Part shown: one piece after another, positions 45,941-57,637 of the stretch
Numbering within the stretch: position 1 is the stretch's first letter
How the letters are laid out: every line of letters begins with the position of its first letter
The notes under the pieces: model-generated
Seen by the model: only the letters and a program-made list of their open reading frames with translations
The model's database searches: none
Told to the model about the DNA's origin: nothing
Translations under genes and position numbers: made by a program
NCBI RefSeq assembly: GCF_000829395.1
Contig: NZ_AP014680.1
Span: forward strand, 1,302,001 to 1,366,000
Reading direction: 5' to 3'
DNA from: Paucilactobacillus hokkaidonensis JCM 18461
GTDB lineage: Bacteria; Bacillota; Bacilli; Lactobacillales; Lactobacillaceae
Length of the DNA stretch: 64,000 nucleotides

Positions 45941-46013
45941 CTTGTCACCTCCGATATTCTCTTGTTAAGCATACCATTTTATTAAGTAATAGGAATAATA
46001 AAACGATAAATAT

Positions 46014-46028
46014 CGCGCATTAAGCGCG
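46014..46028. promoter_or_regulatory. GC-rich palindrome upstream of rpoY
   Basis: CGCGC (46014-46018), ATTAA, GCGCG (46024-46028); next to a second palindrome CGATAAATATCG. It stands out in an AT-rich intergenic region just upstream of a TAAAAT -10-like hexamer, so it may be an operator. Confidence 0.3.
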
Positions 46029-46095
46029 GTGAATGTGCTAAAATTAATGATGTTATATTTCCATTAATCTTAACCCACAAGGAGCAATATAAATA

Positions 46096-46308
46096 ATGGT
46101 TTTTAAAATATTTTACCAAGAAACAAAAATTCGTAATCCCAAACGAGAAACAACGCATTCAATGTACCTAGATTCTGATTCAGAATCAGAGGCACGGGTG
46201 TTGGTTGAAACAAACACGACACACAATATCGAGTTCATCGAAGCACTGAGTCCAGCTGCTTTAGAATATGAACAACAAGATCCAGCTTTCAAACTAACTA
46301 AGTTTTAA
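46096..46308 (+). CDS. rpoY: RNA polymerase epsilon subunit RpoY
   Basis: Small auxiliary subunit of Firmicutes RNA polymerase. The 70-residue protein MVFKIFYQETKIRNPKRETTHSMYLD...NIEFIEALSPAALEYEQQDPAFKL closely follows the Bacillus RpoY pattern (YKVFYQ, TxSLYIE, NIEFI, LEYEQQ). AAGGAG lies 11 bases before the ATG. In many Firmicutes the next gene is rnjA; here a terminator and a lipid-kinase gene follow instead. Confidence 0.92.
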   Translation: MVFKIFYQETKIRNPKRETTHSMYLDSDSESEARVLVETNTTHNIEFIEALSPAALEYEQQDPAFKLTKF

Positions 46309-46322
46309 TTATTATCAATAAT

Positions 46323-46361
46323 AAGAACTATAGCAAGAATTATTTTGTTAGAGTTCTTTTT
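46323..46361 (+). terminator. Terminator of rpoY
   Basis: AAGAACT (46323-46329) pairs with AGTTCTT (46352-46358); TTTTATTG follows. Confidence 0.7.
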
Positions 46362-46470
46362 ATTGATCGTAATTAAAACAAACCCAAAGGGTCCAACCAG
46401 TTTATATGTTTTCTGGGACTGAATTTGATCTATTAAGGATGTCTTTGTCTGACGGAGGAAAAAATGTTTC

Positions 46471-47418
46471 ATGAACTTTCTAATCATTTTAAACGAACAT
46501 GCTGGTAGCGGTAATGCCCGTGCCACTTGGAAAATTATCGAGCCAATATTGCAAAATAAAAATATCAACTATGATTTTAAGATTTCACAATATGCTGGTC
46601 ACACAACCTACCTGACACAACAATACATTAAAAATGTCCAGAATACTGATCACTCAGTTATTTTAGTAATTGGTGGCGATGGCACATTGCACGAAGCGCT
46701 CAATGGAGCAATGAGCATGTCCCAGTCAAATCCTATTCCATTAGCGTATATTCCTGCTGGATCAGGCAACGATTTTGCCCGTGGACTCGGTATGTCGGCA
46801 AAACCATTGGAAGCCTTAAATCAAGTTTTAAATTGTCAGCAACCAACCATTATTAATGTTGGCAGTTATGAAGAGACCATGAAAAATGAAACAGGCTATT
46901 TTATTAATAATATTGGAATTGGCTTTGATGCAGCAGTAGTCAGCCGAACTAACGCTTCTACTAGCAAACGTAAGTTAAATAAATATCATTTAGGTTCCTT
47001 AGCATACCTATCGTCCGTAATTGCTGTTTTATATAATCAAGAACCGTTTCCACTAATGGTTCAAGTTGATAAAAAAAGAACCTTATTTCAAAAGGCCTTT
47101 CTTGTCACCACATCAAAACATCCATATTTTGGTGGTGGCGTTTCAATTTTACCGGACGCCTCAGTTAACAAAGCAGAACTGGAGTTAATTGTAATCGAGC
47201 GCACTAATTGGCTAATTATATTGTGGGTGGCTATTTTGATTGTACTTGGTAAACATCTCAATTCAAGGTTTGTCCATATCTTCAGAGGTCCTCATTTGCA
47301 CTTAACAACTACTTCAATCGAGCACGGACAGATTGATGGCGAAATAATGGGTAATCGCTTCTTTGATCTCCATATGGGCGTTAAACAGTATCCATTTTGG
47401 ATTGATGCATCAATATAG
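46471..47418 (+). CDS. Diacylglycerol kinase family lipid kinase
   Basis: ATP-dependent lipid kinase of the DagK/YegS fold, 315 residues. NEHAGSGNA near the start and VIGGDGTLHEALNG (GGDGT at 68-72) with LAYIPAGSGNDFARGL give the nucleotide-binding site; the C-terminal domain ends DGEIMGNRFFDLHMGVKQYPFWI. It probably phosphorylates diacylglycerol or a related lipid at the membrane. GGAGG lies 12 bases before the chosen ATG at 46471; a nearer ATG at 46464 opens only a 14-codon frame that overlaps this gene. It is monocistronic with a strong terminator. Confidence 0.88.
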   Translation: MNFLIILNEHAGSGNARATWKIIEPILQNKNINYDFKISQYAGHTTYLTQQYIKNVQNTDHSVILVIGGDGTLHEALNGAMSMSQSNPIPLAYIPAGSGNDFARGLGMSAKPLEALNQVLNCQQPTIINVGSYEETMKNETGYFINNIGIGFDAAVVSRTNASTSKRKLNKYHLGSLAYLSSVIAVLYNQEPFPLMVQVDKKRTLFQKAFLVTTSKHPYFGGGVSILPDASVNKAELELIVIERTNWLIILWVAILIVLGKHLNSRFVHIFRGPHLHLTTTSIEHGQIDGEIMGNRFFDLHMGVKQYPFWIDASI

Positions 47419-47420
47419 AT

Positions 47421-47455
47421 AAAAAGATGAAAGCCGAATGGCTTTCATCTTTTTT
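47421..47455. terminator. Bidirectional terminator after the lipid-kinase gene
   Basis: A 15-bp perfect stem (47421-47435 with 47440-47454), 4-base loop, T-run on the plus strand and T-run on the minus strand. Confidence 0.85.
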
Positions 47456-47476
47456 AGATCTACAAGAATATGGTGG

Positions 47477-47692
47477 TTAATCCTCCGACGCTTCCATTGC
47501 ATCCAAAATCATCCGAAGCTGACCACACTTTTCTCGTAATGCATTCATTTCTTTTCCATAACGAGGTTCAATTGTGACAGTGCCGGAATTCGATTTAGTT
47601 GGCCGACATTGACGAGCTTCTTTTTGACATAAGCGATTAAGATCGCCTTGAGTGTCAGTTAGCTCTTGTTGAATCTCAAACCTGTTACTCAC
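47477..47692 (-). CDS. Hypothetical small coiled-coil-like protein, 71 aa
   Basis: A 71-residue charged helical protein (VSNRFEIQQELTDTQGDLNRLCQKEARQCRP ... EMNALREKCGQLRMILDAMEASED) with three cysteines and heptad-like leucines. I do not recognise the family. GTG at 47692 has AAGGGAG eight bases upstream and is preferred over GTG at 47701. It is convergent with the lipid-kinase gene and shares its terminator. The function is unknown. Confidence 0.6.
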   Translation of the reverse strand: MSNRFEIQQELTDTQGDLNRLCQKEARQCRPTKSNSGTVTIEPRYGKEMNALREKCGQLRMILDAMEASED

Positions 47693-47842
47693 CTTGAACA
47701 CTCCCTTAGCTCAGTAAAGTATTAAAAGCAAATTCAAATTTGCAACACTGAATATACCACCATTTGCACCAAAAGTTAACCTTTTATAGATTACAATTAC
47801 ATTACACTAATTTTCCATCCTCCAATATCGACTCCAAGAACA

Positions 47843-47866
47843 AAAAAACCGCCAAACGGCGGCTGT
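47843..47866 (-). terminator. Terminator of the LysM hydrolase gene
   Basis: CCGCC (47849-47853) pairs with GGCGG (47858-47862), with AACAGC/GCTGTT-like flanks; TTTTTTTG follows on the minus strand. Confidence 0.75.
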
Positions 47867-47889
47867 TTTTATTATTTTCAGTAAAAAAA

Positions 47890-49107
47890 CTACTTAATAG
47901 TTCCTGCAAAACTTGGCATAAAGTAACTGCTAATTGTTTGCACTTTAACGTTTTGACCACTAGATGGAGCGGCAACAAATTGGTTATTACCAATATAAAT
48001 TGCATCGTGATACGTTGCGCCTGAATTACCCCAGAATAAAATATCTCCTGGTTTAGCACTAGCAACAGAATGTTTCGATACATAGGCTTCTTGCGCCACG
48101 GTATTATGTGGCAAACTAATTCCTGCTGAATGACTGTATACATATTGTACTAATCCAGAACAATCCATTCCACTAAGGCTGTTACCACCCCATACATAAG
48201 GAATATTTGCATTAGCCAATTTGACGGCTAAGCTGACGACCGAACCAGTTTCAAGATTACTACTTGTGCTTGTTGCAGTACTGCTACTTGTAGCGGAATT
48301 GCTAGTTGTGGTATTCGACGTTGCTGTACTGTGATTAGTTGTAGCATTGCTAGTAGCTGCTGTGGATGTAGCCACACTTGCAGCTGTTTGAGTACTTGCA
48401 CTAGCTTCTGTAGTAGCTGTCGAAGCGGTATTTGAACTAGTTGCAACAGCACTTGAACTGCTTACAGTGGCACTACTTGCAACAACTGAAGATTGAACAG
48501 CTGCACTATCTGCAGTGCTATCAGCACTAGAACTCGATACGCTGGATGTTACTGTTGTACTTGCAGAATTTGCTGCACTAGTCGTTGTGCTTGCAGAACT
48601 TGCTGCAGAAACGCTAGCACTACCTGAAACTGTTAATGTCTGGCCAGCAATAATCAAGTCGCTGTTAGTTAATTGATTGACCTGCTCAAGTGTTGCTACA
48701 GAAACCCCAAAACGAGCACTCAATGCACTTAATGTGTCACCAGCTTGAACCGTGTATTTACCATTAACAACAGCCGCACTACTACTTTCAGTTGCAGCAC
48801 TAGTTGCTGTAACAGCAGCACTACTTTGACTAACACTCGTTTTTGAGTTTGATAAGTTCAGTGTTTGTCCTGCATAAATCAAATCAACACTTGAGCTAAT
48901 CTTCTTTATACCTGTGTTTTGTATCTCCAAGTCACTAACTGAAACACCATACTTTTGGGCAAAGTCCCAAACCGTATCACCAGCCTGAACCTTAACTGTA
49001 TCTGCTTTAACACCTTGTGTGCCAACTGCAAACAACCCTAAGGCTCCAACGGTTCCTAAAACAACATTTTTAGCATATCTATTGGTACTTTTATGAGAAC
49101 TAGACAT
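47890..49107 (-). CDS. Secreted LysM - NlpC/P60 cell-wall hydrolase
   Basis: A peptidoglycan endopeptidase of 405 residues. A signal peptide (about 1-36, ending GVKADT) is followed by two LysM domains (about 39-82, VQAGDTVWDFAQKYGVSVSDLE; about 122-163, VQAGDTLSALSARFGVSVATLE). A Ser/Ala/Thr-rich linker of about 120 residues comes next, then a C-terminal NlpC/P60 domain with Cys316 (GMDCSGLVQYVY) and His367 (TYHDAIYIG). The third catalytic position, usually His, Asn or Gln before APxxG, is Ala here (VAAPSSG). AAGGAG lies 8 bases before the ATG. A candidate promoter and WalR box lie upstream. It is likely involved in cell separation. Confidence 0.9.
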   Translation of the reverse strand: MSSSHKSTNRYAKNVVLGTVGALGLFAVGTQGVKADTVKVQAGDTVWDFAQKYGVSVSDLEIQNTGIKKISSSVDLIYAGQTLNLSNSKTSVSQSSAAVTATSAATESSSAAVVNGKYTVQAGDTLSALSARFGVSVATLEQVNQLTNSDLIIAGQTLTVSGSASVSAASSASTTTSAANSASTTVTSSVSSSSADSTADSAAVQSSVVASSATVSSSSAVATSSNTASTATTEASASTQTAASVATSTAATSNATTNHSTATSNTTTSNSATSSSTATSTSSNLETGSVVSLAVKLANANIPYVWGGNSLSGMDCSGLVQYVYSHSAGISLPHNTVAQEAYVSKHSVASAKPGDILFWGNSGATYHDAIYIGNNQFVAAPSSGQNVKVQTISSYFMPSFAGTIK

Positions 49108-49219
49108 TAACAACACTCCTTAAATTTAAATAAAATAGCAAAACAGCAAAATATGTTCTTATTAATTAAAATCAATTTTCATTATTAACAGTCTTAAGCT
49201 TATCTTTAGACTTGTTAAC

Positions 49220-49248
49220 AGCATAACACGTTATTTGTACCATGAAAA
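49220..49248 (-). promoter_or_regulatory. Candidate promoter of the LysM hydrolase gene
   Basis: Minus strand TTTTCA (49243-49248), 17-base spacer, TATGCT (49220-49225); about 113 bases of leader precede the start codon. Confidence 0.45.
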
Positions 49249-49362
49249 CACTTTATAAACTTATACAAATAAAAACAAACGTTAGAAAATATTTAATTGC
49301 AATAGCCAAATATGCATATTAAAGGCATCCTTTTGGATTTTTATTTTAATTAAGTTGCCCAT

Positions 49363-49379
49363 ATTACAAATTCATTACA
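49363..49379 (-). promoter_or_regulatory. Candidate WalR (YycF) box
   Basis: On the minus strand TGTAAT, 5 bases, TGTAAT. This matches the two-hexamer TGTWAH-N5-TGTWAH consensus of the essential cell-wall regulator WalR and points to the LysM hydrolase gene, a typical WalR target. It is about 115 bases upstream of the promoter I could see, which is far for direct activation. Confidence 0.45.
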
Positions 49380-49394
49380 AAACTATTTAGCAAC

Positions 49395-49925
49395 CTATTT
49401 AACTTCTTTATGACTTAAATATATTTTTTCGTGATCATGCACGATCTTGATTTGTTTATGCTGTAATGTCAGCTTACTTAATTGTTGATTACCAAACTGT
49501 TTATGAAACTGATCCTTAGGTATTTGCTCGGTAGCAGCAACACTTCCACTTTTCAATGCAGTCTTATTTGCATAAGTATTGACAGTAATTCTTTCAGGTG
49601 TAAATATAATTTTATCGCCAGTTCTATGATAACCTCCATAATAAGTTCTAGTCCAACATTGACTAACTGTATTAGTCTCAATTAATTTATATTGCTTATT
49701 GCTTAAAAATGTAACATCCAGTTTGACACTTTCGTTTTGTGGGTATTTTTGTTTGCCACTCCACTTACCCGCTGGCTGGACAACAGTTGCTTCAGCATTA
49801 GTGTTTTGTTTTGCCGGTGTTTTATCTGGAGACGATACGTTTAAAAATATAACAACAATTATAATTGCCATACCAATCAGTAACAAACCAGCCAGCCACC
49901 ATAGTATTTTTTTCTTTAATTTCAA
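49395..49925 (-). CDS. Hypothetical membrane-anchored protein, 176 aa
   Basis: A basic start MKLKKKILWW followed by a hydrophobic segment (about 9-29) anchors a polar domain of about 145 residues. Seen in the domain: GKWSGKQKYPQNESVKLDVTFLSNKQYKLIETNTVSQCWTRTYYGGYHRTGDKIIFTPERI, a pattern suggesting a small beta-sheet domain, with one cysteine. No lipobox. I do not recognise the family. It is read towards the LysM hydrolase gene, from which it is separated by about 290 bases of AT-rich sequence. Confidence 0.65.
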   Translation of the reverse strand: MKLKKKILWWLAGLLLIGMAIIIVVIFLNVSSPDKTPAKQNTNAEATVVQPAGKWSGKQKYPQNESVKLDVTFLSNKQYKLIETNTVSQCWTRTYYGGYHRTGDKIIFTPERITVNTYANKTALKSGSVAATEQIPKDQFHKQFGNQQLSKLTLQHKQIKIVHDHEKIYLSHKEVK

Positions 49926-50065
49926 ATTTAACTTCCTTACTTAAATTAACTTAAAAAAGTCTGCCACTACCTTATGCTTCTCTTTTAAAAATCCACTCAC
50001 TCTCATTATTAGCTTTTTTATTTACTAATACAACTACCCCTAATCAGTCATATTAAAATAACCGG

Positions 50066-50093
50066 TTGACAAATTTTTTCAAAGTGGTAATTT
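50066..50093 (+). promoter_or_regulatory. Promoter ahead of the T-box
   Basis: TTGACA (50066-50071), 16-base spacer, TAATTT (50088-50093). The stretch 49926-50065 holds no supportable gene. Confidence 0.55.
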
Positions 50094-50109
50094 TAAAGTA
50101 TTAAAATTA

Positions 50110-50366
50110 GATGAGAACACGATGAGTAGGATGTAACTTAGTCGTTAACTTCGTGACAGAAAGCCTTGGTAGCTGAGAAGAGGTATGAAGTAAACTAAGC
50201 AACAATCGCCTATGAGTAATTACCTAACCATTAATTTGATTACGTAATGGATTCCACCATTATTGGAAACTGATTTATAATCAGTCACTAAGCCACTATC
50301 AGTGATGATAGCGGAAAATAAGGTGGTACACGTCAACACGTCCTTTTTCTCTAGGGCGTGTTTTTT
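50110..50366 (+). promoter_or_regulatory. T-box leader with antiterminator and terminator
   Basis: The layout is that of a tRNA-sensing T-box. Stem I (about 50113-50215) has GATGAGTAGG at its base, an upper helix CTTAGT/ACTAAG and an apical AGAAAGCC...GCTGAGAAG. The T-box sequence AAGGTGGTACACG is at 50320-50332. The terminator pairs ACACGTCC (50336-50343) with GGGCGTGT (50354-50361), followed by TTTTTG. The specifier must lie in CAACAATCG (50200-50208). The UGGU of the T-box predicts a tRNA with discriminator A, which fits ATC (isoleucine) or ACA (threonine) and argues against AAC (asparagine). It controls the hydratase-family gene that follows. Confidence 0.85.
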
Positions 50367-50468
50367 GTCTAATTTAATTTAATTGTAATTGGAGATGATA
50401 ATTAACTATTATTACTGCTTTGAGTTATTTACATAGAAAATAAATTAAAATTTGGAGGAATACATATT

Positions 50469-51272
50469 ATGCAAAATACTACTAGTTTAACGGATTTAAC
50501 TGAAACAGAAGGAAAGTTTGCACAGACACTTTTGACAGCGTTACAAACGCAAACCAAGCTCGATGAATCTAAGTATAAGGATCTAGTCACCGATGATGAT
50601 TCTGGCTACCGCGTTCAATACGCATTAACCCAGCTAAAAAAAGAAGCTGTTGGGGGGTACAAAGTCAGTCTGACCAGTAAACAAACTCAAGATATGTTTG
50701 ATGCTGACGCTCCCCTTTATGGTGCTGAGGTTAAACATCAGTGGCTTAAGTCTCCTACAACCGTTAATATGTCTGATTTAATGGAACCACTGGTTGAAGT
50801 TGAGTTAGTGTTCACTGCTAAAAGCGATCTATCACCCGAAGATTCGCTGGAAGATTTACTCAATAAAACTACAGTTGCCCCTGCCCTTGAGCTGCCTGAT
50901 TCTCGTTTTGAAAATTGGTTCCCAGCATTATCTAAACTGATGGTAATGTCAGATAACGCAGTGGCCGGTCGTGTTGTTTTTGGCGATGAAGTTGACAGTA
51001 CTAATTTTAACGTCGATGACTTGAGTCGCGTGAAAGCGGAACTTAAGTTAAATGACAAATCATTAGCTGCTGGCGAATCGAGCGAAGTGCTAGGCAATCC
51101 CCTTAATTCACTCCAATGGCTTGTAAAAAAGTTGGCTAGCCAAGGACTCACACTATCGGCTGGTCAGCATGTATCCAGTGGCACCTTTGTGCTTCCACCA
51201 CATCTAGAAGCAGGTCACTACACTTGCCACTTCACGAGTGGATTAGGTGACGTTGATTTACAGGTAAAATAA
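50469..51272 (+). CDS. 2-keto-4-pentenoate hydratase / MhpD-like family protein
   Basis: A 267-residue soluble protein of the hydratase/decarboxylase branch of the fumarylacetoacetate hydrolase fold. Visible: GYKVSLTSKQTQDMFDADAPLYG, VEVELVFTAKSDL, ALELPDSRFENW, MSDNAVAGRVVFGD, VLGNPLNSLQWLVKKLASQGLTLSAGQHVSSGTFVLPPHLEAGHYTCHF. The EVELVF and LELPDSR blocks supply acidic residues where the family binds its divalent metal. Homologues act on 2-hydroxypenta-2,4-dienoate in aromatic breakdown, a pathway not seen here, so the true substrate is unknown. GGAGG precedes the ATG. A T-box leader upstream ties it to amino-acid starvation. Confidence 0.8.
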   Translation: MQNTTSLTDLTETEGKFAQTLLTALQTQTKLDESKYKDLVTDDDSGYRVQYALTQLKKEAVGGYKVSLTSKQTQDMFDADAPLYGAEVKHQWLKSPTTVNMSDLMEPLVEVELVFTAKSDLSPEDSLEDLLNKTTVAPALELPDSRFENWFPALSKLMVMSDNAVAGRVVFGDEVDSTNFNVDDLSRVKAELKLNDKSLAAGESSEVLGNPLNSLQWLVKKLASQGLTLSAGQHVSSGTFVLPPHLEAGHYTCHFTSGLGDVDLQVK

Positions 51273-51292
51273 TGCTAAATTACATGTTTGAG

Positions 51293-51324
51293 GTTGGCCT
51301 TATTACAAAGGCCAACTTTTTTTC
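51293..51324 (+). terminator. Terminator of the hydratase-family gene
   Basis: GTTGGCCTT (51293-51301) pairs perfectly with AAGGCCAAC (51308-51316), followed by TTTTTTT. Confidence 0.9.
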
Positions 51325-51429
51325 TACTAATCAACAAGTGTTGATGCACTTTTCTGGTTTCCCAAGATTAAATAGTATAGCATTAGATATACAGATAATG
51401 TTGTTATAATTTTAATGGGGAATTAAATT

Positions 51430-52188
51430 ATGCTTCTAACTGATAAAGTAGCGATTGTAACCGGTGGTGCATCAGGAATGGGACTTGCAACTGCTGAGTT
51501 ATTTGCACTTGAAGGTGCCAAAGTAGTTGTTGCCGATTTAAATCTTGACGGTGCAAAAAAAGTAGCAGACACAATTACTACTAATGGAGGCACTGCTCTA
51601 GCAATCAAAGTTGATGTTTCATCCCAAACTGATATCGACAATCTGTTCAAAACAACTTTAACTTCATTTGATCATCTGGACATTCTAATTAATAATGCAG
51701 GTATCATGGATAACATGGCTGGTGTGGCTGACGTATCAGATAAAATCTGGCAACGTGTGTTTTCAATCAATGTGGACAGCGTCATGATGGCATCTCGGGC
51801 CGCATTGAATCTTTTTTTACCGCAGAAAAGTGGCACAATTGTCAATATTGCATCTGTCGGTGGATTGCGTGGTGGCGTTGCTGGAGCTGCCTACACCGCT
51901 GCAAAACATGCGGTAGTTGGCTTAACTCAAAATACAGCCTACATGTATAATCAAAATGGAATTCGTTGTAATGCTATCGCTCCAGGTGGTATAGCAACCA
52001 ACATTGCAAAATCAATGACTGATCTCAACCAAACGGGAATGCAAAGAACACAGGCTGGCGCTGCTATTATGCCACCAACCGGTAAAGCTGAAGACATTGC
52101 TAACGCTGCTTTATACCTAAGCAGTGATCAAAGCAGTTATGTCAACGGAGTTACTTTAACCGTCGACGGTGGCTGGAGCACATATTAG
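51430..52188 (+). CDS. Short-chain dehydrogenase/reductase, glucose/ribitol type
   Basis: A classical SDR oxidoreductase of 252 residues: TGGASGMG (11-18), VDVSS, ILINNAG (about 86-92), catalytic Ser142 (IVNIASVGG), Tyr155 and Lys159 (YTAAKHAVVG), and C-terminal SSYVNGVTLTVDGGWSTY. Asp36 in VVVADLNL suggests NAD preference. The substrate cannot be assigned. It has its own start context (GGGGAATTAAATT before ATG) and is separated from the hydratase-family gene by a terminator, so the two are probably independent units. Confidence 0.88.
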   Translation: MLLTDKVAIVTGGASGMGLATAELFALEGAKVVVADLNLDGAKKVADTITTNGGTALAIKVDVSSQTDIDNLFKTTLTSFDHLDILINNAGIMDNMAGVADVSDKIWQRVFSINVDSVMMASRAALNLFLPQKSGTIVNIASVGGLRGGVAGAAYTAAKHAVVGLTQNTAYMYNQNGIRCNAIAPGGIATNIAKSMTDLNQTGMQRTQAGAAIMPPTGKAEDIANAALYLSSDQSSYVNGVTLTVDGGWSTY

Positions 52189-52310
52189 CCTAATTTGGCT
52201 ATTAGAACTGTGATTAAAAAAATAATGACTATAATTGAACAAATTAGTTGCTACTGGAACACAAAGTGCGTTAAACTATGACCTAATCAAAGCAAAGAGA
52301 AGGTGACTAC

Positions 52311-52736
52311 ATGGTCAATTTATATTTTCATACTAATGATCCTTCCAAACGCAAGGCCGTTAAATGGTTAGTCGAACATGATGTAATTGCAAGCCAGCGT
52401 AACATTGAAAATGAACCGTTGACCGAAGATGAGGTCATGCACCTGCTTTCATTATCAATCGATGGCACCGACGAACTAATTTCAAAACGATCAAAAGATA
52501 CTAAAGCCTTAAATATGGACCCCGATCAAATGACAATTAAAGAATTAACAGCAGCAATTTTGGAAACACCACATATCTTGAAAAATCCAATTATCTTTGA
52601 TAAACACAAGCTGATGACTGGATTTGATTTAGAAAAGGTTGGGATGTTTGTCCCTAAAAAATTACGAAAATTAGAACTATCAGCACTCTTCGCTAAATTA
52701 GCTCCTAATAGTGGCCAAAATGTGAAGCTTGCATGA
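52311..52736 (+). CDS. Spx/ArsC-family protein lacking the CxxC motif
   Basis: A 141-residue protein with the ArsC/Spx thioredoxin-like layout: beta strand VNLYFHTNDPSKRKAVKWLVEHDV, then IENEPLTEDEVMHLLSLSIDGTDELISKRSK, MTIKELTAAILETPHILKNPIIFDKHKLMTGFD. Spx proteins read CTSCRKA or CxxC at residues 10-13 (the redox switch); here the same place reads HTNDPSK, and the whole chain appears to contain no cysteine. It may still bind RNA polymerase as a redox-insensitive regulator, or be a divergent paralogue. GAAGGTG precedes the ATG. Its target genes are unknown. Confidence 0.78.
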   Translation: MVNLYFHTNDPSKRKAVKWLVEHDVIASQRNIENEPLTEDEVMHLLSLSIDGTDELISKRSKDTKALNMDPDQMTIKELTAAILETPHILKNPIIFDKHKLMTGFDLEKVGMFVPKKLRKLELSALFAKLAPNSGQNVKLA

Positions 52737-52802
52737 TACAATGGAGCTTGTCGAATAGATGAGTTCTTTTTTTATTATTTTTTTTAGGGGAGATTTCAAC
52801 AG

Positions 52803-53459
52803 ATGAAACAATTAGAATTATATTTTGTTAGACATGGTGAAACTTTGTTTAATACAATGGATAAACTGCAAGGTTGGGCCGATTCTCCACTAACGGATAA
52901 CGGTATCCAAATTGCTAAACTGACCGGTCAAGGGTTATCGGATACTTCGTTTCAATCGGTGTATTCATCTGATATGAAACGTGCAATGGACACTGCTAAT
53001 TTTATTATTTCAGCTAATAAATCATTTACTGGAGACTTGAAAAAATCCGCTCATTTTCGAGAAGCATTCTTTGGCGGGTTCGAAGGTTTGGATAATCAAA
53101 CTACCTGGAAATCAATTGCAACACCTTATGGCGCTACTAATCAAACTGAAATGTTGGAACAAGTTACCCCTGGCACGGTTCGTGATCGGATGCATGCTGC
53201 AGATCCACTGCATTTAGCAGAAACTGGCACTGAATTTTGGCAGCGCATAGATCAAGGACTAACCAATTTATTAGTGCAGGAACCAGATCACGCACGCATC
53301 CTTATAGTAGCTCATGGAACTTTGATTAGATCCTTAGCCATTAGATTTTCTGACAACCGATTTGATCCAATTCATGAATTTCCCCAAAATGGCAGTATTA
53401 CTAAATTTAGTATTAATGCTAACAAAACAAAAATATTAGATTACAACCTGACCAACTAA
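52803..53459 (+). CDS. Histidine phosphatase family protein
   Basis: A phosphoglycerate-mutase-like phosphatase of 218 residues. YFVRHGETLFN (RHGE at 10-13, with catalytic His11), SDMKRAMDTA, FREAFFGGFEG (acid/base Glu) and LIVAHGTLIRSL (second catalytic His). The N-terminus has no signal. The substrate is unknown. GGGGAG lies upstream of the ATG. A second family member lies at 58360-59022. Confidence 0.88.
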   Translation: MKQLELYFVRHGETLFNTMDKLQGWADSPLTDNGIQIAKLTGQGLSDTSFQSVYSSDMKRAMDTANFIISANKSFTGDLKKSAHFREAFFGGFEGLDNQTTWKSIATPYGATNQTEMLEQVTPGTVRDRMHAADPLHLAETGTEFWQRIDQGLTNLLVQEPDHARILIVAHGTLIRSLAIRFSDNRFDPIHEFPQNGSITKFSINANKTKILDYNLTN

Positions 53460-53498
53460 AAAACAGCAAAAACGTTTTAACGACGTTTTTGCTGTTTT
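53460..53498. terminator. Bidirectional terminator
   Basis: AACAGCAAAAACG (53462-53474) pairs with CGTTTTTGCTGTT (53484-53496); T-runs on both strands, between convergent genes. Confidence 0.85.
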
Positions 53499-53516
53499 TT
53501 TAGAATTAATTCAATA

Positions 53517-54086
53517 TCAAGATTCGATTGGATGCCACTCATACAACGCCCTTGGACCACCAATTAATTTTGGCCGACTCTTCAAATACGTAATATGTGC
53601 ATCCCCAACTTCTTTAACTGAAGTCCGCACAGGAATTTGAACAAATTTTACATGCATGCCAATTGAAGTATCTCCAAGATCAATTCCTCCGGCCGCAACG
53701 ATATGTTCAACTTCAACTGGATCTTTGAATTGATCATAAGCAGCCACTTGTGTCGCCCCGCCGGCATGCAACGCTGGAACAACAGATACCTGTTCAAAGC
53801 CCCGCTTATCAGCCTCAGCACGTTCCATTAATAAAGCCCGGTTGAGGTGTTCACATCCTTGAACAGCCAAATGCAATTGTCGATCCTTAATTGCCTGTAA
53901 TACAACCCCTATCACCATTCTACCAATTTCAATTGATGAATGCTCTCCAATCACTTTTCCCTGTACTTCACTGGTACTGGAACCAAGCACAATCAAAGCA
54001 TCTGGTGCAAACTTGGCTGCATCTAAAAATTCATTGACACCTTGCTGTAACTGTTCTTTTGCTGTTAATAAATCAAATCCTACCAT
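53517..54086 (-). CDS. UPF0340 family protein (TIGR01440, YwlG type)
   Basis: A 189-residue soluble protein with VGFDLLTAKEQLQQGVNEFLDAA, LIVLGSSTSEVQGKVIGEHSS, VQGCEHLNRALLMERAEADKRG, ASAxxHAGG-like PALHAGGATQVAAY and GGIDLGDTSIGMHVKFVQIPVR: the UPF0340 pattern. The fold resembles nucleotide- or sugar-binding domains, but no activity is established. The start at 54086 has AAGGAAG upstream. It lies just downstream of prs. Confidence 0.9.
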   Translation of the reverse strand: MVGFDLLTAKEQLQQGVNEFLDAAKFAPDALIVLGSSTSEVQGKVIGEHSSIEIGRMVIGVVLQAIKDRQLHLAVQGCEHLNRALLMERAEADKRGFEQVSVVPALHAGGATQVAAYDQFKDPVEVEHIVAAGGIDLGDTSIGMHVKFVQIPVRTSVKEVGDAHITYLKSRPKLIGGPRALYEWHPIES

Positions 54087-54099
54087 TGAGTTTACTTCC

Positions 54100-55095
54100 T
54101 TATATTTTTGCGCTGGTATTGTCAGAACTAATAAACAATGAATCAACTGGCTCATTATTATGGACGTGAGCAATTGCTTGTCCCAATAATGGTGCAACTG
54201 ATAATTGAACTAATTTTTTACTCTTTTTTCTTTCCGGTAAATTAATTGAATCGGTCACAATCATTTTTTCGATTACCGATTCGTCTATTTTAGTCATTGC
54301 ATCTCCCGAGAAAACCGCATGGGTGGCACAGGCCAACACGTGTTTTGCTCCAAAATTTTTAACTGCCATCGCGGATACGGCCATTCTAACTCCTGTATCA
54401 ATGATATCGTCAATAATAATTGCAGTTTTCCCTTTAACATCCCCAACCACATATTCTGGAACCTCTTCCGTTTTTCGTTCAATCTCTTCCGGATTACGGT
54501 TATCAATAATAGCGATTGGCGCCTTCAAAATTTCAGCTAATTTTCGAGCTCGAGTGACTCCAGCATGATCTGGTGCCACAACCACAATATTTTTTGTCAA
54601 ATCATGATTATAAAAATAATTTGCTAGTAATGGTGCTGCTAATAAATGGTCCACAGGAATATTAAAGAATCCTTGTACCTGAGCTGCATGCAAATCAAGT
54701 GTCACTACTCTATCCACACCATCCATTTCTAACAATGTAGCAATTAGTTTAGCTGTAATTGGCTCGCGTGAACGCGCTTTTCGATCTTGGCGGGCGTAAC
54801 CATAATATGGTAACACCACGTTAATTGTCTTGGCACTGGCACGCCGCAGCGCATCAATCATGATTAGTAGCTCCATTAAAGTGGAATTAACTGGATCAGA
54901 GATCGATTGAATTACATAGATTTCACAACCACGGACACTTTCGTCAATACTAATTTGAATCTCACCATCCGCAAATTGTTTGATGGTGGCATCGCTGAGT
55001 GGAATTCCAATTTGGTCAGACACTCCTTGTGCTAACGGTTTATTGGAATTTAACGCAAATAATTTCACATTTCCTGCATTTTTAATCTCAGTCAT
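54100..55095 (-). CDS. prs: Ribose-phosphate pyrophosphokinase, variant PRPP loop
   Basis: Makes PRPP from ribose-5-phosphate and ATP. The 331-residue protein has the flexible-loop arginines [21 protein letters not shown] (about 97-117), [13 protein letters not shown] and the C-terminal PRPP loop [14 protein letters not shown] (about 225-238). In standard enzymes this loop reads DDxxDTAGT; here Ala-Gly-Thr is replaced by Gly-Val-Arg, so loss of the usual PRPP/ribose-phosphate contacts is possible. Lactobacilli often carry two prs genes, and this may be the divergent second copy. GGAGG lies 9 bases before the ATG. Confidence 0.88.
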
Positions 55096-55186
55096 ATCTC
55101 GGCTCCTCCAGAATTAACTTCCGTTCCATTATCGCAACAATTAAGCAACTGTGCAAGCTGATTAACCTTCAATTTCAAAAAAATAG

Positions 55187-57637
55187 TTAAAAATCAGTCG
55201 GCTTAATTCCATGCATCCCAATCATCGGGTCAACTTGACCATTTTGAATTAAGGGCATCGTTAAAGTATATGAAATTGGCTTTGCTTCTTTACTTTCTAC
55301 CACTGTTGCTTCTTTAGGTGGTGCTACAACCGATAATTTATTCGCCGAATCAGGCACTGGATCACCCTTAAACACATCAATTAACCTTAAATTCAATGAA
55401 GTATTCCGATTAACTGATTCATTTTGGATGCTAATCTCGAAAGCCTTAGGATCGCCCACTAAAATTAATTTACTTTTAGCACGAGTAATTGCTGTATACA
55501 ATAGATTGCGCTGCAGCATCCGACTAAACTGGCGTACCAGTGGTAAAATCACCATTTCAAATTGACTACCCTGCGATTTATGAATGGAAATACAGTAGGC
55601 CAACGTTAATCGTTGCCACTCATTACGTGAATAAGTTACCTCCGTTTGATCAAAATCAATTGTAATTTGATCAGTTTTAGGACCTTTGACGCCCTTTACA
55701 CCAAGTTCAATGCTAACAATCGTGCCAATATCACCGTTAAACACATTATTTTCAGGGCTATTGACTAAATGTAACACCTTGTCCCCGATTCGAAAATGTT
55801 CGCCGCGAAACTCAACTTCTTTTTTCTTCGTTTCATCTAAAGGATTAAACACGTTTTGAACCAATTCATTTAAACGATTAATTCCCGCATTACCACGATA
55901 CATGGGTGCTAATACTTGAACCTGTGCGGCACTAAAAGCATGTTGCTTGGCCCGTTCAACGACTTGTTCAATTACTCCTGCGACTTGATCTGTTCGGCAT
56001 GGAATAAATGACCGATCAGGAAATGCACTTGTAAAATCAGCGGGCATGATTCCCGTTTTAATCGCATGAGCTAATGGAATAATAGAAGATTCAGCGGATT
56101 GTCGATAAATTTGATTTAACTCTTGTTTCGGCAACCGATCAAAGTTTAATAAATCATGGAAAATCTGTCCTGGACCAACTGATGGTAATTGATCCTTATC
56201 ACCAACTAGCACAACTTGCATAGAACTAGGTACAGCCTTTAATAACGTTTTAAAGAGCAGTGTGTCAACCATTGAGAGTTCATCAACAATCAAGAGTGCG
56301 CCAGTTAAGTCATTGACATTCATTTCTGTTGGCTGTTCACGACCATTTAATCCTAGTAGACGATGAATGGTACTTGCTGGCAATCCTGTAGTCTCGCTCA
56401 TTCGTTTGGCGGCCCGACCAGTCGGAGCAGCTAATAAAACTGGAAATGGGGTATCCTTATATTCATTGATATCCAACGAGTAGTCATGCAACTTAGCAAA
56501 TGCTGCCACGATACCATTTATAATAGTCGTCTTACCGGTTCCTGGACCCCCTGTAAGCAAGAAAACATGCGATTTCATCGCTGAATTAATTGCCTGCTCT
56601 TGTGATTCATCGTAATCAATATCTAATTGGTGTTCAATCTGCTTGATTACTTTACTAACCTGTTTATCGTCCACTTTAATTGGTTGATCCGATACCAATC
56701 GATACAAGTGTTGTGCAATTTGCCATTCGGCATTGAACAAAGCACTTGGATAGATTCGATTTTCTTGGGCAACTAATTTATTTAACTTTGTTAGTTCAAT
56801 TAATTGATCGGCAATTTTTTGTGGGTCAATTGCGATATTACGACTATCTTCAAGTAGCCGTAATGCTTCTGTAAGTAACGGTTTGGCCGTTGTATAAGTA
56901 TCACCGCTTTGCATTGTTACTTCATCGAGCACCTGCAAAATAGCCGCATTAATTCTACGTGTATCGTCGCTATCAATATGAATCTGCTCAGCAACTTGAT
57001 CGGCACGTTTAAAACTAATTCCATCAATATCTTCCGCTAATTGATATGGGTTCTTGGCAATTACTTCTAGTGTTTCATCCCGATATTTTTCAAAAATAGC
57101 AGTCGATAAAGAGCTACCAAAGCCGAAATCGTTTAAGCCGATAATAACTTGATCCATCCCTTTGCTCTCAGTTAAATTATCAACTAACACTTTGACTAAA
57201 TTAGGGCGCAACTTTAATGGTTTCAATACAGAAGTATCTTTTACGATTTCATCAATCGCACTGGTACCTAACAAATCAACGATCTTAGTTGCGGTTTTTT
57301 TCCCAATACCCGTAAACTGTTCACCAGAAAGATAATTGATAAGTCCTTCCGTGGTTGTTGGCTGAGCATTATGGTAAGTAACAGATTGAAACTGTTGGCC
57401 ATATTTGGGGTGATCAACTAGTTTACCTTCAAATCGATATGCGCTTTCTTCATTAACTTCACCAAAGTTACCAGTAACCACAATCTCATCTTGAGACCAA
57501 TCAAAATTATTTTCCATTGGTTGCACAAGTAAGACTTTATAAAAATTATCAGTACTGGCAAAAAAAGTTGTCAAAACCTTTCCAATTAAAAAAGACGGCT
57601 CACTTGGACCATCAAATAAGTTAATTGAGTTGTCCAT
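55187..57637 (-). CDS. recD2: ATP-dependent DNA helicase RecD2
   Basis: 5'-3' helicase of the RecD-like SF1B group without RecBC. About 816 residues: an N-terminal OB-like and helix-hairpin-helix region (YLSGEQFTGIGKKTATKIVDLLG), the helicase core with Walker A LLTGGPGTGKTTIING, AAPTGRAAKRMSE, DELSMVD (Walker B), VGDKDQLPSVGPGQ, YRQSAES and the C-terminal ISIHKSQGSQFEMV and YTAITRAK. The start at 57637 has AGGAG nine bases upstream; ATG three codons earlier sits on that site. It follows the TPR gene, as yrrB-yrrC do in Bacillus. Confidence 0.95.
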   Translation of the reverse strand: MDNSINLFDGPSEPSFLIGKVLTTFFASTDNFYKVLLVQPMENNFDWSQDEIVVTGNFGEVNEESAYRFEGKLVDHPKYGQQFQSVTYHNAQPTTTEGLINYLSGEQFTGIGKKTATKIVDLLGTSAIDEIVKDTSVLKPLKLRPNLVKVLVDNLTESKGMDQVIIGLNDFGFGSSLSTAIFEKYRDETLEVIAKNPYQLAEDIDGISFKRADQVAEQIHIDSDDTRRINAAILQVLDEVTMQSGDTYTTAKPLLTEALRLLEDSRNIAIDPQKIADQLIELTKLNKLVAQENRIYPSALFNAEWQIAQHLYRLVSDQPIKVDDKQVSKVIKQIEHQLDIDYDESQEQAINSAMKSHVFLLTGGPGTGKTTIINGIVAAFAKLHDYSLDINEYKDTPFPVLLAAPTGRAAKRMSETTGLPASTIHRLLGLNGREQPTEMNVNDLTGALLIVDELSMVDTLLFKTLLKAVPSSMQVVLVGDKDQLPSVGPGQIFHDLLNFDRLPKQELNQIYRQSAESSIIPLAHAIKTGIMPADFTSAFPDRSFIPCRTDQVAGVIEQVVERAKQHAFSAAQVQVLAPMYRGNAGINRLNELVQNVFNPLDETKKKEVEFRGEHFRIGDKVLHLVNSPENNVFNGDIGTIVSIELGVKGVKGPKTDQITIDFDQTEVTYSRNEWQRLTLAYCISIHKSQGSQFEMVILPLVRQFSRMLQRNLLYTAITRAKSKLILVGDPKAFEISIQNESVNRNTSLNLRLIDVFKGDPVPDSANKLSVVAPPKEATVVESKEAKPISYTLTMPLIQNGQVDPMIGMHGIKPTDF

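Follow-up and report, generated by a model that had tools for sequence, protein, structure and literature searches.

A predicted isoleucine T-box leader precedes a gene of the MhpD/HpaH fold in Paucilactobacillus hokkaidonensis and many of its relatives

The window analyzed here, a stretch of 64,000 nucleotides from the genome of Paucilactobacillus hokkaidonensis JCM 18461, carries an intact open reading frame of 267 amino acids (50469..51272, forward strand), which the open reading frame list, protein profiles, an AlphaFold2 model and Foldseek identify as a gene of the MhpD/HpaH fold, predicted to be under isoleucine control. It is preceded by a ribosome-binding site, GGAGGA, recognized from the sequence (50454..50459, forward strand), and further upstream by a T-box leader of the isoleucine type (RF00230; 50113..50348, forward strand). 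The terminator scan placed a terminator-like hairpin behind the gene (51290..51319, forward strand), which is probably monocistronic in this genome. Downstream, at 51430-52188 of the window, an SDR-family dehydrogenase gene forms its own transcription unit; at two loci from another family of the order (L346 and L347), the homologue is immediately preceded by the end of a gene judged by eye to be SDR-like. The sequence upstream of the leader contains a candidate -35 element, TTGACA (50066..50071, forward strand), without a convincing -10 element, and by eye this hexamer occupies a comparable place in many related leaders. The promoter consensus scan did not list TTGACA at 50066, and the five promoter-like sites that it returned were no excess over the 4.3 expected.

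A preliminary description of this DNA, made from the sequence alone, had proposed that a complete T-box stands before the MhpD-like gene, and this proposal holds: Stem I, a specifier, a T-box sequence, an antiterminator and a competing terminator were all found in the leader. The RF00230 covariance model is covered over its full length (positions 1-219) by the leader, with a cmscan score of 64.4 bits and an E-value of 1e-13 computed on a search space of 581 bases. The leader does not reach the Rfam gathering score of 93 bits, and the default scan of the window returned zero hits. That score is a curation threshold and represents no structural feature; 32 matches to RF00230 were found in the P. 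hokkaidonensis genome, 10 of which pass it and 22 of which lie below, and a homologous leader (L384) exceeds it with 114.8 bits. An argument against a T-box from the sub-gathering score was rejected on the strength of the E-value search and L384, which mark the leader as a weak but real member of the family. The T-box sequence, AAGGTGGTACACG (50320..50332, forward strand), was located from the sequence, the Rfam alignment and the discriminator A of the tRNA; its UGGU is predicted to pair with the ACCA end of tRNA-Ile, and its AAGG with CCTT in the antiterminator. The intrinsic terminator, a hairpin followed by a T-run (50335..50362, forward strand), was detected by terminator scan and folding, and its stretch has a folding z of -4.1. 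The minimum-energy fold of the whole leader has a z of -2.94, with 2 of 200 shuffles folding equally well, and plain minimum-energy folding of this leader does not draw the T-box fold.

Besides supporting a T-box, the covariance model fixes its specifier codon as AUC (50205..50207, forward strand), as does an alignment of 109 leaders, comprising that of the window and 108 others. The specifier column of this alignment reads AUC in 106 leaders, and the other three carry AUC one base upstream. The following base varies (A in 80 leaders, C in 13, G in 11 and T in 5), indicating that AUC is kept amid changing surroundings. Isoleucine (AUC) and threonine (ACA) had both been put forward as specifiers; isoleucine stands, and threonine is excluded because the model puts AUC at this position and all examined leaders carry this same codon. 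The prediction from UGGU of a tRNA with discriminator A likewise agrees with the three tRNA-Ile genes of the genome, which have the anticodon GAT and the 3' end GGCCCA. Judged by its sequence, the T-box of the window is isoleucine-specific.

Homologous loci were compared in a family-level sample of 301 genomes and an order-level sample of 148 genomes. The hydratase-like protein was found in 138 of the 301 genomes sampled from the family of the window, and 138 homologous loci were fetched from 136 genomes besides that of the window, two of them with a second paralogue of ~40% identity. The same gene lies behind an AUC T-box at 112 of these 138 loci (108 leaders found by pattern and 4 more by Rfam), most of the leaders being called by pattern and aligned codon rather than by Rfam, and AUC is the specifier in all 112, including the four found by Rfam. 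A stricter pattern recovered the T-box core in 94 of 105 loci with longer flanks, from genomes partly shared with the earlier set. Relatives of the gene also occur in 10 genomes from other families of the order, among the 148 sampled; examination of copies there revealed no adjacent T-box. When T-boxes and leader peptides are counted together, an isoleucine sensor accompanies 132 of the 138 loci. None was found at the other six, of which L169, L179, L188 and L192 were read over 320 bases upstream and L194 and L198 are broken genes.

The second kind of sensor was recognized by reading the DNA upstream of the 26 loci that lack a T-box, 20 of which have another isoleucine sensor: 15 directly upstream, three at operon heads and two as candidates at paralogues. 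Its design is a short open reading frame with runs of Ile codons at its end; behind it lie a terminator hairpin and a T-run. Such a short Ile reading frame lies directly upstream at all 13 loci of genus code g16, probably Leuconostoc, and at two of the three T-box-less loci of genus code g2, taken to be Fructobacillus. The peptides encoded include MITSVTTTAQIIISIIII at L174, where the leader has a folding z of -7.84, and MNKQMNSQVNNIIINAIIII at L185; parts of the leaders at L185 and L128 have z values of -2.4 and -3.4, respectively. The peptides at operon heads read MTSSAMYNANIILISNVLIII (L412), MSYLNANNFTAIIVVNIIVIII (L413) and MMLKSKTMLNNSNIIVAIIIIT (L417), all of these sequences being given up to their stops, and each of the two diverged paralogues has a candidate Ile leader peptide. 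A protein tree with 130 rows, a midpoint root and paralogues counted apart places the 16 leader-peptide rows in two separate groups among the T-box rows; these rows need two changes, which the starred branches of the tree force. T-boxes maintain the link to isoleucine in the sampled family, and leader-peptide attenuators do so independently.

Many of the T-box leaders (loci among L066-L183, from many genera) also contain a short open reading frame with a ribosome-binding site between the terminator and the gene, with start sequences such as MESVISSSNENPGQIQI, LEVGIKSSDDSDIQI and MKGESGIKSSDESDIQI. Over 113 leaders, the best reading frame averages 2.77 Ile within the first 22 codons vs. 0.72 in 100 shuffled sets (standard deviation 0.11, highest 0.98), and a motif for these frames drawn up post hoc fits 52 of the 113 leaders. 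In five groups picked by hand, codon columns with synonymous-only and nonsynonymous changes numbered 2/10, 0/4, 5/2, 2/1 and 1/3. This Ile-rich reading frame, absent from the leader of the window and from the five other leaders of its genus, is a candidate for a tandem translational sensor that would add a third layer of control.

The 267-amino acid protein matches TIGR02312 and TIGR03220 with 105 and 90.3 bits. Its scores on the NCBIfam equivalog models (105, 90.3, 78.5 and 73.3 bits) lie below the cut-offs of 351.5, 408.8, 350 and 350.6 bits, and its score on Pfam FAA_hydrolase (12.4 bits) lies below the cut-off of 23.9 bits. The AlphaFold2 model has a pLDDT of 94.8, and its best Foldseek matches are 2wqt, 1sv6, 2eb6 and 5d2f, structures of MhpD, HpcG and 4-oxalocrotonate decarboxylase, with an E-value of 1e-23 and TM-scores of 0.88-0.89 against 2wqt/1sv6. 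All 36 aligned members of the family have K65, E110, E112 and E141, which align with residues of MhpD and HpcG; we take the lysine and the three glutamates to have catalytic and metal-binding roles. The PD[FY]G motif of hydratases (2EB4, 1SV6/2WQT and 8IH6_A), whose Asp is presumably a functional residue of these enzymes, reads P[LF][YF]G in all 36 members. Decarboxylase 5D2I has PIYG at the position of the hydratase Asp, nearer to the PLYG of the protein encoded in the window. Replacement of this Asp by Leu or Phe makes the name "hydratase" doubtful. Modeling and alignment thus point to a 2-oxo-acid enzyme of the MhpD/HpaH fold for which hydratase activity is doubtful and enolization is more likely than hydration.

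Gene neighborhoods are mostly variable. In two operons, L412 (genus code g18) and L413 (g7), the order is a PF13303 transporter, a branched-chain aminotransferase matching TIGR01123 with 399 and 416 bits, respectively, and the hydratase-like gene, the L413 copy of which contains one stop; adjacency was judged by eye among the places listed, giving at least two ilvE-adjacent operons. A third operon, L417, consists of the PF13303 transporter and then the hydratase-like gene. The PF13303 (PTS_EIIC_2) membrane protein of these three operons is a candidate isoleucine or 2-oxo-acid transporter. Elsewhere, a PanE-type gene lies 13 bases downstream of the hydratase-like gene (L301 and L303), an L-LDH-type gene lies downstream of it on plasmids (L302, from L. 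plantarum, and L306), and in Nicoliella (L304) the gene is flanked by a BcaP-like permease on one side and by an aminotransferase and a PanE-type gene on the other.

Raw counts over the 301 genomes, uncorrected for ancestry, place the gene in 112 of 179 genomes with TIGR01123 vs. 26 of 122 without it, and in 33 of 35 genomes with ilvC vs. 105 of 266 without it. TIGR01123 falls below its cut-off in 26 of the 138 gene-bearing genomes. The P. hokkaidonensis genome has no match to ilvC, ilvD or PF01063 (class IV aminotransferases), so that if 3-methyl-2-oxopentanoate (KMV), the 2-oxo acid of isoleucine, is the substrate here, the last step needs another transaminase. No aminotransferase was seen by eye beside the gene at 46000-56000 of the window. 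A class I/II aminotransferase lies close to the gene in some genomes in which TIGR01123 falls below its cut-off (Nicoliella and Limosilactobacillus); the Limosilactobacillus assignment was made by neighbor clustering and, for L274, by Pfam. The best NCBIfam match of the L274 protein, below cut-off, is a MocR-like regulator family, which leaves its role unsure.

The reading that we favor, and hold to be somewhat probable, is that the T-box senses a shortage of isoleucine and that the gene encodes a metal-dependent 2-oxo-acid enzyme that aids isoleucine supply. Sequence supports the T-box, the specifier, their conservation, the second isoleucine sensor, the ilvE operon, the fold and the key residues; from these we infer the cellular response, substrate, reaction, direction and metal. 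Uncharged tRNA-Ile would be read through the AUC codon and the UGGU:ACCA pairing, and isoleucine shortage would let transcription pass into the one downstream gene. Its product would be a metal-dependent enzyme of the MhpD/4-oxalocrotonate-decarboxylase fold acting on a 2-oxo acid, and would draw on the KMV pool alongside a transaminase and a transporter. Its chemistry would be enolization at C3, of the tautomerase or epimerase type, rather than hydration; this best accommodates the fold, the retention of the Lys and three Glu, the loss of the hydratase Asp and the operon of three genes. The suggestion of the preliminary description that the gene serves an unrecognized step in amino acid-linked 2-oxoacid metabolism is thereby strengthened, as the isoleucine specifier, the two kinds of sensor and the ilvE operons in two genomes all support such a role.

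A narrower form of this proposal, which is tentative and rather unlikely as it stands, is that the family consists of C3 epimerases or tautomerases of KMV and is a new enzyme of isoleucine metabolism. Of the 2-oxo acids that correspond to isoleucine, valine and leucine, KMV alone is chiral at C3, which would explain the control of the gene by isoleucine and the contrast with PanE-type genes, found under both Ile and Val T-boxes. If KMV epimerization were correct, isoleucine-auxotrophic lactic acid bacteria could recover isoleucine from racemic or allo precursors, with as many as three types of isoleucine sensor in control (T-box, Ile-rich upstream reading frame and classical leader peptide).

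Two other chemistries can be set against enolization, each with a small and similar probability. The enzyme might be a true hydratase or dehydratase acting on the isoleucine skeleton, converting, e.g., 4-hydroxy-3-methyl-2-oxopentanoate to an unsaturated 2-oxo acid as part of another isoleucine pathway that starts from 2-oxobutyrate and acetaldehyde. The fold shared with MhpD and HpcG agrees with such a reaction, and the MhpD product with a 3-methyl group added, which would be the unsaturated 2-oxo acid in question, has the carbon skeleton of isoleucine; however, all 36 aligned members have Leu or Phe in place of the Asp of PD[FY]G, and the L412, L413 and L417 operons, which hold the transporter, ilvE (in two of them) and the gene, contain no aldolase or ene reductase. 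With about the same low probability, the gene could encode a decarboxylase or clean-up enzyme that disposes of an undesirable 2-oxo acid arising when isoleucine runs short. The resemblance of PLYG to the PIYG of decarboxylase 5D2I suggests as much, but switches induced by shortage and operons with a transporter and ilvE fit supply better than loss.

Considerably less likely is chance capture of a T-box, or its use as a general signal of amino acid shortage, by an enzyme unrelated to isoleucine. Relocation and shifts in specificity are known for T-boxes (Wels 2008, PMC2494555), but an isoleucine sensor is present at 132 of the 138 loci and comes in two unrelated kinds, the second in two groups of the protein tree; a T-box gained by chance is very unlikely when the same amino acid is sensed in two unrelated ways. 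Descent of the element from a deleted aminoacyl-tRNA synthetase gene, for which no support was found, is rejected, since the element precedes the same gene at 112 of 138 loci and ileS, named by NCBIfam, is present with its own AUC T-box (G000:C1:1369891-1370111) 3.9 kb past the end of the window.

A survey of T-box targets reported 54 T-box genes of unknown function and listed LBA1071 as "Ile related hypothetical" (Wels 2008, PMC2494555); LBA1071 may possibly belong to the hydratase-like family, which would make that entry an earlier listing as a T-box target. Among the papers of the library searched, none mentions both the T-box and 2-keto-4-pentenoate hydratase. In one transcriptome comparison, the L. 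plantarum gene LP_RS15375, named there as a 2-keto-4-pentenoate hydratase, was among those lowered, in a passage that leaves isoleucine unmentioned (PMC9019972). A large share of the lactic acid bacteria family places a predicted isoleucine-specific switch before what databases name an aromatic-degradation hydratase. The favored reading, if correct, would mean that many genes of food and gut bacteria are misannotated and that supposed auxotrophs have an unrecognized step in isoleucine supply; the two unrelated sensors lead to a concrete substrate hypothesis. Branched-chain 2-oxo and 2-hydroxy acids are flavor compounds.

Other T-boxes were noted during the comparison. The P. hokkaidonensis genome has a Branch_AA_trans (brnQ-type) gene under an AUC T-box as well, and brnQ-type genes lie under Ile T-boxes in three genomes and, by eye, under Val T-boxes in two. 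PanE-type proteins act as 2-hydroxy-acid dehydrogenases in Lactococcus; a PanE-type gene (PF02558/PF08546) is under an Ile T-box in genome G299 (L376), and another is under a Val T-box in G232 (L399). A PanE-type gene of P. hokkaidonensis (L028, G000:C1:1939890-1940112) has a T-box leader of 48.4 bits and is left out of the isoleucine-controlled genes; the T-box pattern occurs in 26 of the 30 relatives fetched, and the leaders of L028 and L307-L335 share a largely conserved AAAG and show no recognizable specifier codon. An AUC T-box of 125.6 bits (L002, G000:C1:2261316-2261553) lacks a clear target and is possibly orphaned, a gap of ~360 bases separating it from an open reading frame that by eye we take to be DNA-entry nuclease-like. 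Finally, a T-box with GAA-C-AUC (L364, G299:C7:195385-195624) stands before a gene that is presumably, by eye, prolyl aminopeptidase-like.

Compared with known isoleucine-class T-boxes on ileS and brnQ, the leader of the window has the same Stem I, AUC, UGGU and antiterminator/terminator arrangement, whereas its target is a 2-oxo-acid enzyme from a family known in aromatic degradation and differs from the synthetase, transport and classical biosynthesis genes. The protein, in turn, shares its fold with MhpD (1SV6, 2WQT), HpcG/HpaH (2EB4-6) and the 4-oxalocrotonate decarboxylase NahK (5D2F-K), with TM-scores over the query of 0.83-0.89, 24-29% identity in the Foldseek alignments, and the Lys and three Glu in common. 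Unlike these enzymes, its gene is predicted to be under isoleucine control, and no aromatic pathway genes were noticed beside it. The rtpA (anti-TRAP) gene of Bacillus subtilis is also under T-box control (PMC11255114). Its tandem of a T-box and a Trp leader peptide resembles the T-box plus Ile-rich reading frame of the related leaders, although that of the window lacks the latter, and rtpA uses tryptophan where they use isoleucine. The leader-peptide part of rtpA control was reportedly the subject of work by Chen and Yanofsky in 2003 and 2004. Replacement of T-boxes by leader-peptide attenuators is known from the hisS family of Firmicutes (Naville and Gautheret 2010, PMC2965389). There, as here, one gene family has a T-box in some species and a leader peptide in others, the earlier case involving histidine and hisS paralogues and the present one isoleucine and an MhpD-like gene.
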